The notes beneath the pieces are model-generated. The model ran no database searches, had not been told where the DNA came from, and was given only the letters and a program-made list of their open reading frames with translations. Position numbers and translations under genes: made by a program. DNA of 64,000 bases from Thermaerobacter sp. FW80 (GTDB lineage Bacteria > Bacillota > Sulfobacillia > Thermaerobacterales > Thermaerobacteraceae): positions 2,455,245-2,519,244 of the forward strand of contig NZ_CP037895.1 in the NCBI RefSeq assembly GCF_004634385.1. Direction: 5' to 3'. Positions 13,943 to 18,452 of the stretch are shown here, in pieces (position 1 is the first letter of the stretch; each line of letters begins with the position of its first letter).

Positions 13943-14611
13943 TCAGGCCGCCCGCCAGGCCGCATCGAAGAAGGCGAACTCGAGCTCCATGGCCGTCCGA
14001 TACAGCGCGGCCACGTCCTCGACGCCGGGGTGCCAGCGGTCCAGCAGGGCCTCCAGCCGCCGGGCCAGCCCTTCGAAGGCGGGGCTCCCGTAGGTGGTCA
14101 CCCACTCGCGATACGGGTTGTCGGGTGTCACCCGATCGGCCAGCGAGCGCCCCAGGTAGGCGTACAGGCGCATGCACGGGGTCATGGCCGCGGCGATGGC
14201 CCCCAGCGGCCGCGACCACGCCACGTCCAGGACGAAGCCGGTGTACGCCCGCGTGGCCAGGGCCGGGGCCGGCCGCAGGTCGACCCCCCATCGCGCGGCG
14301 TAACCCTGGTGCAGGCGGAGCTCGTCCAGCACCCCCTCCAGGAGGTCGCGAAGGGCCGTCATGGTCTCCAGGTCGGGCGCCTTGGCCAGGGCGAGGGCGT
14401 AGGCGCGGGCGAAGGCCTCGAGGAAGTTGGCGTCCTGCCCGACGTACCAGGCGAAGCGGTCCCGGGGTAGGTCGCCCCGTCCCAGGCCCTGGACGAAGGG
14501 GTGCTCGAGGCACCGTCGCGCCACGTCCAGGTTCTGCCGCCAGAGCTGCGCGGCCAACCCCGTCCCGCCGCCGTCCCCCGACGCCGGGGGATGGGCCGTC
14601 CCCGGATGCAT
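13943..14611 (-). CDS. tenA: TenA-family aminopyrimidine aminohydrolase (thiaminase II)
   Basis: Salvages the pyrimidine half of degraded thiamine by hydrolysing amino- or formylamino-pyrimidines to hydroxymethylpyrimidine. The 222-aa protein begins with LWRQNLDVARRCLEHPFVQGLGRGDLP and contains RFAWYVGQDANFL and the acidic C-terminal MELEFAFFDAAW, matching TenA. ATG 14611 has GGGAGGGATC about five bases upstream. It is the last gene downstream of the TPP riboswitch, after the ECF transporter genes. The transporter is therefore most likely for a thiamine pyrimidine precursor. Confidence 0.93.
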   Translation of the reverse strand: MHPGTAHPPASGDGGGTGLAAQLWRQNLDVARRCLEHPFVQGLGRGDLPRDRFAWYVGQDANFLEAFARAYALALAKAPDLETMTALRDLLEGVLDELRLHQGYAARWGVDLRPAPALATRAYTGFVLDVAWSRPLGAIAAAMTPCMRLYAYLGRSLADRVTPDNPYREWVTTYGSPAFEGLARRLEALLDRWHPGVEDVAALYRTAMELEFAFFDAAWRAA

Positions 14612-14725: not shown

Positions 14726-17521
14726 CTAGCGCAAACGCGCCGATGCGAGCAGGGCGACGGCGGCCAGGCCCAGCAGCAGCCCGGCATACCCTGCTTCCCG
14801 CCAGCCGGCCGTCAGCCTCCGATAGAACGTGCGCCTTCGGCTCCCGTCGAAGCCGCGGGCCTGGAGCGCCACAGCCACCGCCTCCGCCGCCCGCACCGCA
14901 TGGACCAGGAGCGCCAGGCTGTACCGGTAGGCAGCCTCCAGCCGACCCCGCAGCCCCCGGCCGGCGAGCCCGCGGACGCGGTAAGCCTTACGCACCCGGG
15001 CCAGTTCGTCCTGGAAGAGGGGGACGAAGCGCAGGGCGGCCAGGAGCCCGTAGGCCCAGCGAGGGCTGAGCCCGCCCTGCTGCACGAGGCCGAGCACCAA
15101 ATCCGCCAGGCCGGTGGTCCGGACGTACAACACCCCCAGCGCTCCGACCCCCAGCAGGCGGAGTCCCACCACCAGCCCGTGGTGCAGCCCCTCGGCCGTG
15201 AAACGGTACCACAGCACCTGGGCCACCACGCGCTGGCCCTCCCCGAAGGCGCCCAGCGTCCACACGCGCGTGGCGGCGACCACCGCGAAGGGCGCCATGG
15301 CGACCAGCCACTGGCGGACCCCGATGCCCCCGCCCAAAAGTCCGAGGACCACGGGGACCGCCAGCAGGGCGGCCAGCGTCGCCGGGTCGTCGGTGGCCAG
15401 CACCACCCCCGCCAGGACCAGGTGGGCGCCCAGCTTCCACACCGGGTGGACCCGGCCGACCCAGGGGGTGCGGTCCTCCCGCCGGGTGGGCGCGGGTGCA
15501 GGGCTTCCGCGGGCGATGCCCTGGGGCCCTGCCGACCCGACCGCGGACCTCCCCTCCGCCCCGCCGTCCGCTCCCGCGGGCGCCGCCGGCCTCGCTGGCC
15601 CCTCCGACGGCGCAGGCCGCAGCGGGGGCGCGCCGGCGACCGCGATGCCGTCCGCCGCCGGATTCGCCGCCGAAGCCGGCAGGGCGCGTCCCTGGGGGGC
15701 GGCCGCCCCCAAGCCGACGGCCGCCAGGCGGGCCGGGTCGTCCAGCAGGGGCTCGGGCGGCCCGTCGTAGAGGAGACGGCCGTTGCCGAAGACCAGCAGC
15801 CGCGTCGCCACCGCCCCCGCCAGCTCCAGGTCGTGGGTGGCCATGACCAGCGTCGTTCCCTGCCGGTGGAGCCGCACCAGTTCCTCCACCAGGGCCGCCG
15901 CCGTCCGGGCATCCTGGCCGAAGGTGGGCTCGTCCAGGAAGAGGACGGGTCGCGGCACCACCAGCATGCTGGCCACGCTGAGCCGCCGCTTCTGCCCCTG
16001 GGAGAGGGTATAGGGGTGTGCCCGGGCCAGGTCCGCCAACCCGAACCGCGCCAGCAGCGCCTCCACCCGGTTGCGCAGCTCCGCCTCGGGCAGGCCCGCC
16101 AGCCGGCCGGCCAGGGCCACCTCCTCGTAGACCGACTCGGTGACGAACTGGTGCTCGGGGTTCTGGAAGACGAACCCCACCCGCGCGGCCTCGCCGCGGC
16201 CACCCGTGAGCTCTGGCGCGTGGACCACCCGTCCCCTGGCGGGCGGATGGAGCCCCGCCGCCACCTGGAGGAAGGTGGACTTGCCCGCCCCGTTGGCCCC
16301 CAGCACGACCACCCACTCCCCGGCGGCGATGGTGAGACTGACGTCCTGCCAGACCACCCGACGGCCGTGGGCGGCAGCCGCGGCCTCGAAGCGAACCAGG
16401 GAAGCGCCCCGCCCCGGCACCCACGCCGCGCCCGCCGCCCCCGCTTCCCCCTCAGCCACCGTCTCCGTGCCCTGGTCCGCCGCCGCCCGGGGCCGCTCCT
16501 CGGGCCGCCGCACCCCGCTCCCCGCGGGGGGCGCCGCCGTCCCCGTCCCCCGGGCGGTGGACCGGTCCGCCGACGGCGGGGGGACCCGGGCGCCGTCGCC
16601 CCCGGCCGGCGGCGCCTCGCGCCAGCCCGTGGCCCCCGCGACCACCGGCCGCCAGAAGGGCCCCCAGCTGCGCGGCCGCCAGATGCCGTAGGCCTCGATC
16701 TCCGCCCGATGTCGCCGGAAGACCACCGCGGGCTCGCCGTCGGCCAGCAGTCGTCCGCCCGGGGCCAGGAGGACGACGCGGTCGACCCAGTCCACCACGC
16801 CGTCCAGGTTGTGCTCGATCACGAGGACCGTGTGCCGGCGCGGGAGCCGCTGCAGGGTCTCCAGCACCAGGGCCCGGCCCGCAGGGTCCAGCTGCGCGGT
16901 GGGCTCGTCCAGCACGAGGAGGTCCGGCTCCAGGACCAGCACCGCCGCCAGGGCCAACCGCTGCTTCTGGCCCCCGGAGAGGGCCTGGATGGGGTGACCG
17001 AAGGGAAGGTCCAGCCCCGCCGCCGCGAGGGCCTGCGCCACCCGCGCCGGCATCTCGGCGGGCGGCACGCAGCGGTTCTCGAGGCCGAAGGCGACCTCTT
17101 CATCCACGGTGAACATGCAGAACTGGGCCTCGGGGTCCTGGAACAGCACGCCCGCCCGCCGCGCCGGGTGCAGCTCGCCCGTGACCCGGGCCTCGATCAC
17201 CGACAGGATGAGGCCGCCCAGCGCCAGGGCCAGGGTGCTCTTCCCCGAGCCGCTGGGCCCCAGCAGCAACACGCGCTGCCCCGCCGGGATGGCCAGCGTC
17301 ACGTCCCGCAGGGCCGGCTCCCGTCGATCGGGGTAGCGGACGCTCAGCCCACGGCAGGACGCCGCCGGGGCCACCCCCGCCGGGTCGACCCCTGCCGCGC
17401 CCTCCCCGCCTACCCGGCCGGCGGGCTGCCGGCCGGCGGACGAGGACGGCTCCACCGCGGCCGTGGCGCAGGATGGGCCGACCCCGCCTGCGGTCGAGCG
17501 CGCCGTATCGTCCCACGGCAT
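14726..17521 (-). CDS. Fused ECF transporter module: ATPase-ATPase-EcfT in one polypeptide (YkoD+YkoC type)
   Basis: A single 931-aa reading frame joins three energy-coupling-factor parts that are normally separate or at most paired. Residues 55-276 are ATPase 1 (Walker A GPSGSGKST at 88-96, LSGGQ at 181-185, Walker B LLVLDE at 201-206). A Pro/Ala/Gly linker spans about 277-371. ATPase 2 has GANGAGKST at 408-416, LSQGQ at 506-510 and VLFLDE at 526-531. A second linker (about 600-680) leads to the membrane T-component (687-931) with coupling motifs near YRVRGL and QARGFDG. ATG 17521 has a GAGGTGCC site upstream and lies 16 bp after ykoE. It would energise YkoE for HMP or thiamine uptake. Confidence 0.92.
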   Translation of the reverse strand: MPWDDTARSTAGGVGPSCATAAVEPSSSAGRQPAGRVGGEGAAGVDPAGVAPAASCRGLSVRYPDRREPALRDVTLAIPAGQRVLLLGPSGSGKSTLALALGGLILSVIEARVTGELHPARRAGVLFQDPEAQFCMFTVDEEVAFGLENRCVPPAEMPARVAQALAAAGLDLPFGHPIQALSGGQKQRLALAAVLVLEPDLLVLDEPTAQLDPAGRALVLETLQRLPRRHTVLVIEHNLDGVVDWVDRVVLLAPGGRLLADGEPAVVFRRHRAEIEAYGIWRPRSWGPFWRPVVAGATGWREAPPAGGDGARVPPPSADRSTARGTGTAAPPAGSGVRRPEERPRAAADQGTETVAEGEAGAAGAAWVPGRGASLVRFEAAAAAHGRRVVWQDVSLTIAAGEWVVVLGANGAGKSTFLQVAAGLHPPARGRVVHAPELTGGRGEAARVGFVFQNPEHQFVTESVYEEVALAGRLAGLPEAELRNRVEALLARFGLADLARAHPYTLSQGQKRRLSVASMLVVPRPVLFLDEPTFGQDARTAAALVEELVRLHRQGTTLVMATHDLELAGAVATRLLVFGNGRLLYDGPPEPLLDDPARLAAVGLGAAAPQGRALPASAANPAADGIAVAGAPPLRPAPSEGPARPAAPAGADGGAEGRSAVGSAGPQGIARGSPAPAPTRREDRTPWVGRVHPVWKLGAHLVLAGVVLATDDPATLAALLAVPVVLGLLGGGIGVRQWLVAMAPFAVVAATRVWTLGAFGEGQRVVAQVLWYRFTAEGLHHGLVVGLRLLGVGALGVLYVRTTGLADLVLGLVQQGGLSPRWAYGLLAALRFVPLFQDELARVRKAYRVRGLAGRGLRGRLEAAYRYSLALLVHAVRAAEAVAVALQARGFDGSRRRTFYRRLTAGWREAGYAGLLLGLAAVALLASARLR

Positions 17522-17537
17522 CGGCTGGCACCTCGCC

Positions 17538-18134
17538 TCATCCGGCCACGCCGGGGCCCTGATCCTGCCGGCCGCGCACCACCGCATAGGCATTGAGGGC
17601 CCCGGTCCGCACCAAGCCGTCGACCAGCACCTTGCCCAGCAGGCCGGCGACCACGGCGCCGCTCAGGAGCCGCACCGCCGCAGCGGCCACCAGGGTTCCG
17701 GCGCGCATCCCGGTGAAGTAGCCCGTCAGGGCGTCGAGGGGCAGGCTGCCCACCGCCGCCAGGGCGCCGGCCAGCGCCAGGGCGGGCAGGTCGAACCGGC
17801 GATAGCGGAACGCGGCCAGGGCCACCTCCGCGCCGAGTCCCTGCAACCCGCCGTAGAGCAGCACCCACAGCACGTCGGGGCTGCCCAGCGCCAGTTCCCC
17901 GGCCGCGGCCAGGAGCTCCGCCCAGAAGGCGACGCCGGGCTTCTGGATGATGTAGGCCGCCACCGTGCTGGCGATGAACCAGACGCCGTAGGTGAGCTCC
18001 GCCACCACCGGATGGACCGCCCGGGCCACGTCCCACAGCGCCCAGGCGTTGATGTACAGGACGGAACAGGCCGCGGCCACGAAGGCCAACATGACGATCT
18101 CGCGGAACTGCAATCGGCGGGACGAACCGGCCAT
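17538..18134 (-). CDS. ykoE: YkoE-type S-component of a thiamine/HMP ECF transporter
   Basis: Substrate-binding membrane subunit of 198 aa with about five to six hydrophobic helices and the YkoE-like start LQFREIVMLAFVAAACSVLYINAW. In B. subtilis YkoEDC is proposed to import the thiamine pyrimidine hydroxymethylpyrimidine or thiamine. ATG 18134 has AAGGGGG nine bases upstream; TTG 18140 is too close. It is the first gene after the TPP riboswitch and terminator, followed by the fused ATPase/EcfT gene and tenA. One copy of the 9-mer GGTTCGTCC lies just after the start codon. Confidence 0.9.
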   Translation of the reverse strand: MAGSSRRLQFREIVMLAFVAAACSVLYINAWALWDVARAVHPVVAELTYGVWFIASTVAAYIIQKPGVAFWAELLAAAGELALGSPDVLWVLLYGGLQGLGAEVALAAFRYRRFDLPALALAGALAAVGSLPLDALTGYFTGMRAGTLVAAAAVRLLSGAVVAGLLGKVLVDGLVRTGALNAYAVVRGRQDQGPGVAG

Positions 18135-18238: not shown

Positions 18239-18265
18239 AAAAACCACCTCCGGCAGGAGGTGGTG
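18239..18265 (-). terminator. Intrinsic terminator of the TPP riboswitch
   Basis: On the minus strand ACCACCTCC-TGCC-GGAGGTGGT is followed by six T residues. It sits just after the riboswitch aptamer and about 100 bp before ykoE, the standard layout for TPP-induced transcription termination. Confidence 0.9.
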
Positions 18266-18293
18266 CTCGTCATGCCGTCCAGGCGGCCATGCG

Positions 18294-18397
18294 GTACCTT
18301 CCTCACGCCGGTATTACCCGGATCGAGTCCGAAGGGTAGCGCCCCTGCAGCCTGCGGCTGCCGCGCTTCTCAGCCCGTAGCGGGCACCCCCGGTACC
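18294..18397 (-). promoter_or_regulatory. TPP (thiamine pyrophosphate) riboswitch
   Basis: Read on the minus strand, the element contains the conserved thi-box blocks GGGGGTGCCCGC, GGGCTGAGAA, ACCCTTCGGACTCGATCCGG and GTAATACCGGCG-TGAGGAAGG. It is closed by a GGTACC/GGTACC stem at its ends. When TPP is bound, the downstream hairpin should form and stop transcription. The controlled genes are ykoE, the fused ECF module and tenA. Confidence 0.95.
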
Positions 18398-18422
18398 GAC
18401 ATCCCGTTGGATTGTCACCTCG

Positions 18423-18452
18423 ATGATAGGCCGCGCGGTCCAAAGCCGTCAA
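18423..18452 (-). promoter_or_regulatory. Sigma-A-like promoter of the thiamine-precursor operon
   Basis: On the minus strand TTGACG (18447-18452) and TATCAT (18423-18428) are separated by 18 bp. The -10 ends about 26 bp before the riboswitch, fitting a transcription start just ahead of the aptamer. The 290 bp further left-strand upstream (18453-18744) show nothing else. Confidence 0.8.

Follow-up and report, generated by a model that had tools for sequence, protein, structure and literature searches.

A 64,000-nucleotide stretch of the Thermaerobacter sp. FW80 genome (the window) holds, on its minus strand at 14726..17521, a single gene whose 931-residue product combines both ATPases and the T-component of an ECF transporter. 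That these three parts share one chain, as the initial annotation had proposed, is borne out by the open frame and by the Pfam and NCBIfam matches. Together with its surroundings, the gene very probably encodes the A, A′ and T parts, in one polypeptide, of a group I ECF importer of the YkoEDC type that is controlled by a TPP riboswitch, has YkoE as its partner and takes up thiamine or its pyrimidine moiety.

Domain composition of the fused protein

The gene runs without interruption from an ATG at 17521 to a stop at 14726, a total of 931 codons, within an open frame spanning 14726..17593 on the minus strand. The ATG is preceded by GAGG and lies 16 bases beyond the end of the ykoE stop. Coding on the plus strand at this position was considered and ruled out, there being no Pfam matches there. 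On the minus strand, the order of domains is ABC ATPase, ABC ATPase and EcfT/CbiQ. ABC_tran is matched over two stretches (E 4.9e-51) and CbiQ with E 7.4e-22, scoring 78.5 bits against a cut-off of 25.

The first ATPase domain, residues 52–290 (16652..17368, minus strand), is matched by ABC_tran and contains the best stretch for NCBIfam TIGR04520, residues 57–281. The second, residues 371–606 (15704..16411, minus strand), matches ABC_tran over residues 392–533 and has a fold match to ECF ATPases. Scored over the whole fused protein, the NCBIfam model ECF_ATPase_1 lies above its cut-off (329.6 bits versus 315) and ECF_ATPase_2 just below (309 bits versus 330). Walker A and Walker B motifs and a signature motif are visible by eye in both domains. 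Two ATPase domains of the ECF type are thus contained within one protein.

The T-component occupies residues 691–931 (14729..15451, minus strand). Its assignment as an EcfT/CbiQ-type domain is made from sequence comparison, through the CbiQ profile (residues 710–897) and a phmmer match to EcfT, 4hzu_T (E 3.1e-9); the hit lists of the Foldseek and VIA structure searches were taken up by ATPase domains. Arg850 and Gly851 are invariant in a 38-row alignment and agree with the Ala-Arg-Gly-type motifs of EcfT described in PMC11109136. In YkoEDC-type transporters, the T-component is usually, though not by strict definition, a polypeptide of its own; here it shares a frame with the ATPases.

Operon, S-component and substrate

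The gene order on the minus strand is promoter-like site, TPP riboswitch, terminator-like hairpin, ykoE, the fusion and tenA. The sigma-70-like promoter, TTGACG-18-TATCAT at 18423..18452, is defined by its match to the consensus alone (10 of 12 positions; mean 0.0 in 50 shuffles). It is followed by the riboswitch aptamer at 18282..18401 (Rfam RF00059, 61.0 bits versus a gathering threshold of 54.3) and, in the gap between riboswitch and ykoE, by a hairpin of nine pairs and a T run at 18243..18264. The ykoE gene, 17538..18134 with its ATG at 18134, encodes an S-component of 198 residues (Pfam PF09819, E 9.1e-33; phmmer to 5edl_A, E 8.5e-31). Downstream of the fusion, a tenA-like gene (Pfam TENA_THI-4, E 6.3e-32) lies at 13943..14611; its open frame begins at GTG 14665, and its likely start is the ATG at 14611, which follows GGGAGG. 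The module, placed beside its S-component in a predicted operon under a TPP riboswitch, is probably a dedicated one.

The S-component is of the YkoE family and has the thiamine pocket. In an alignment with 5edl_A, all five thiamine-contacting residues listed for Bacillus subtilis YkoE in PMC5037267 are identical: Tyr46, Trp49, Glu77, Gln95 and Asp131 of that protein correspond to Tyr49, Trp52, Glu80, Gln98 and Asp134 of the window protein, the numbers in that paper being read as chain numbers plus two. In a search of the PF09819 family alone, the ykoE adjoining the fusion is the single such S-component of the genome. The genome carries two other T-components, and at the loci around them (L150 and L151) an ATPase pair and T were never seen in one frame; these loci are an internal contrast to the fused gene. 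At L150 (G000:C1:2395025-2397336), the ATPase pair occupies one frame of 653 residues with a CbiQ-type T-component nearby, and no PF09819 S gene adjoins it.

The transported substrate could be a pyrimidine breakdown product, HMP or an aminopyrimidine, and not thiamine; we regard this as rather unlikely. Speaking for it, tenA adjoins the fusion in all five members of the window's family, and ThiC gave no match in the host genome (98.8% complete) in a search that matched 13 of 14 control genomes, while the salvage-type genes of the ThiE/TenI and ThiM types are present. The pyrimidine contacts are, moreover, the more conserved ones in YkoE according to PMC5037267. The thiazole-contacting residues Tyr46 and Asp131 are nevertheless conserved also, and the same paper gives a Kd of about 4.5 nM for thiamine binding by B. 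subtilis YkoE. We infer that thiamine (or its pyrimidine) is the substrate and that it is delivered by a toppling mechanism.

Linkers and predicted structure

The domains are joined by two linkers, residues 295–370 (16412..16639, minus strand) and 607–682 (15476..15703, minus strand), both predicted to be disordered from the AlphaFold model, in which their pLDDT is below 50. Their description in the initial annotation as long and Pro/Ala-rich holds: each has 76 residues, of which Pro, Ala and Gly make up 57% and 64%, respectively, compared with 31% in the domains. Across members of the genus, the linkers range from 37 to 92 and from 41 to 86 residues. Between the window protein and those of three other species of the genus, they are 29–51% identical, as against 75–82% for the domains.

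The AlphaFold model as a whole has a mean pLDDT of 79.2 and a pTM of 0.74, with confident domains and disordered linkers; the alignment behind it contains 38 rows, only 6 of them full-length, and is shallow for the ATPases. Taken together, the two ATPase domains match 8wdb_D, the two-NBD chain of ATP-bound DppD, over 464 residues with a Z score of 26.3 and an rmsd of 3.6. If the pair forms an ATP sandwich within one molecule, such a match to a two-NBD chain would be expected.

One chain might be made and then cleaved in the disordered linkers, leaving separate subunits as the working complex. The 76-residue linkers vary freely between species, as a protease-accessible region would; passive tethers are, however, equally expected to drift, and inspection by eye of the linkers in four members of the genus showed no conserved cleavage motif. 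We consider cleavage improbable. Separate translation of an extra T, beginning within the gene, is less probable still and hardly to be expected. Internal starts are known to occur in bacterial genes, but residues 605–693 of the window protein include no in-frame ATG, GTG or TTG, and T is therefore without a usual internal start; the GTG at residue 694 has no SD-like stretch before it, and starting there would drop a conserved HP motif.

The best reading is, we infer, an importer made of two polypeptides, the fusion and YkoE, in a two-subunit complex. The fusion would be translated as one stable chain, and the stoichiometry would be 1:1:1. In this importer, the fused chain would supply the whole energising module, A, A′ and T, the expression of which would be controlled by the TPP riboswitch. 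The ATPase domains would pair head-to-tail in the usual ATP-sandwich dimer, the long flexible linkers serving as mere tethers between domains, and the T-domain would couple this dimer to YkoE. Toppling of YkoE would then deliver the substrate, and the imported thiamine, or pyrimidine moiety, would be used by TenA and the salvage pathway. The cycle would be the canonical ECF one, with YkoE as the only subunit able to detach.

Conservation of the fusion in relatives

The frame also stays open through both linkers in three further species of the genus, despite the differences in linker length, and the differences in the domains among genus members cluster at the third position of codons. When the class was searched with the T-domain at E 1e-14, 41 places were matched, spread over 40 of the 154 genomes, the window counted. 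When these were read frame by frame, A1, A2 and T were found in one frame at 36 of the 41 places, and A2 and T in one frame at 39. The three places with A2 and T only comprise two at contig ends and one (G496) with A1 in another frame; the two unfused places are a second, weaker locus in G503 and a locus in G519, a genome of 63% completeness, that is split into three frames. In this class, a matching locus is as a rule fused, and the window is no isolated case. As the class keeps the three domains in one frame at 36 of 41 places, we conclude, from the sequences compared, that the fused frame is no artefact; its conservation within the genus shows that it is no product of chance either. The frameshift or stop that the initial annotation had named as grounds for rejecting the fusion is largely answered, since independent genomes keep the frame.

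A TPP riboswitch is present at all 33 of the same-class fused YkoE loci searched, a count that includes the window and the G004 contig bearing ykoE and A1 and leaves out six places with a contig end close to the S gene or with a truncated locus. The genome G503 contains both a fused, TPP-controlled module and an unfused paralogue (L177 and L178) that has its own PF09819 S gene; no TPP riboswitch was found at the unfused L178, nor at the fused L161, which has a different S-component.

At L161 (L161:1399-5046) and L152 (L152:449-3946), there is another type of A-A-T fusion, beside a PF09819 S-component whose C-terminal part matches Oxidored_molyb, PF00174 (E 5.3e-6 and 9e-8, respectively). No TPP riboswitch was found with this type.

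Further afield, one scan of named genomes was made, in which the best 80 of 587 relatives were examined. T is in its own frame at 75 of these 80 loci. The arrangement given for YkoEDC in the initial annotation, fused ATPases with a separate T, is upheld by this count and by PMC5037267, in which YkoD consists of two fused ATPase domains and YkoC is separate. The five fused loci among the best 80 belong to Alicyclobacillus kakegawensis, Paenibacillus radicibacter, an actinomycete MAG and two Microbacterium species. Two of the five have a TPP riboswitch (L009 and L029) and three have none (L021, L045 and L069). In a sample spread evenly over the phylum, T was matched at E 1e-8 in 212 of 398 genomes, with a frame longer than 700 residues in at least eight among the matches listed (G000–G003, G012, G037, G376 and G259). 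No plasmid-borne copies of the fusion were found at E 1e-60. In an Anaerolineae MAG (L059:2857-5507), the usual order is inverted, with the T frame ahead of that for the ATPases.

Origin of the fusion

Among unfused pairs on the same strand, T is out of the ATPase frame in 72 of 73, the open frames usually overlapping, so that a single indel could fuse A and T; this is a plausible route to the fusion. The same overlap could also let a sequencing or assembly error join neighbouring genes, since a fusion might be made or lost through a single indel. The fusion recurs, however, in three further species of the genus and at 36 of 41 same-class places, with the frame kept across linkers of changing length, and it is exceedingly unlikely that A-A and T are separate genes in the actual organism.

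Trees were built from a chosen subset of 88 rows, made up of 45 of the 80 named loci, 42 other fetched loci and the window, from which 36-row (quick) and 25-row trees were drawn. On the 88- and 36-row trees, the fused or separate state changes a minimum of six times, five of these changes being forced by starred branches. The changes may be gains or losses, losses possibly among them. On the trees, the window's family lies closer to unfused Bacilli than to the remaining fused families of the class, but an AU test on the 25-row tree did not reject one clade of the same-class fused families (p 0.119). In view of both results, neither a single origin of the fusion within the class nor two origins are claimed.

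We suggest, tentatively and with more doubt than conviction, that the single-chain module evolved several times and was fixed in lineages because dedicated group I modules never exchange subunits, making them obligate 1:1:1 engines. If so, the A:A′:T ratio would be settled for this branch, and release of the S-component, the only part able to leave, would be the sole dynamic step.

Comparison with known systems

No description of an A-A-T fusion was found in the open-licence literature; subscription journals, including those of the founding ECF surveys, lie mostly outside it, and an earlier mention is quite possible. The architecture is present in many public genomes and apparently undescribed in the literature searched, and annotation by separate subunits may overlook it. 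The ratio and the exchange of ECF subunits have been debated; according to PMC3246461, one group forms a 1:1:1:1 complex, whereas another has oligomers of the S-unit. With A, A′ and T carried by a single chain, their ratio would be set genetically, and binding and release of the S-component could be measured while the module stays together. The natural fusion also offers structural studies a construct that already exists.

The fusion in the window is a variation on a known machine, common to its relatives; in textbook bacteria, the corresponding engine is assembled from two or three proteins. With YkoEDC of B. subtilis, it has in common a YkoE with identical thiamine-contacting residues, a fused ATPase pair, a CbiQ-type T-component and THI-box control; it differs in that T is joined by a long linker to the C-terminal end of the ATPase pair and in that tenA follows. 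The group II EcfA-A′-T modules (4huq and 4hzu) consist of the same three domain families with the same ATPase folds, but their subunits are separate and shared among many S-components, whereas the window has one chain adjoining one S gene. Fusions of ATPase to ATPase are listed in PMC6828968. The EetB-ECF-T and EetB-ECF-A proteins, described in PMC9973259, likewise hold ECF subunits in one chain; they join S to T or to A, whereas the fusion described here joins A, A′ and T.
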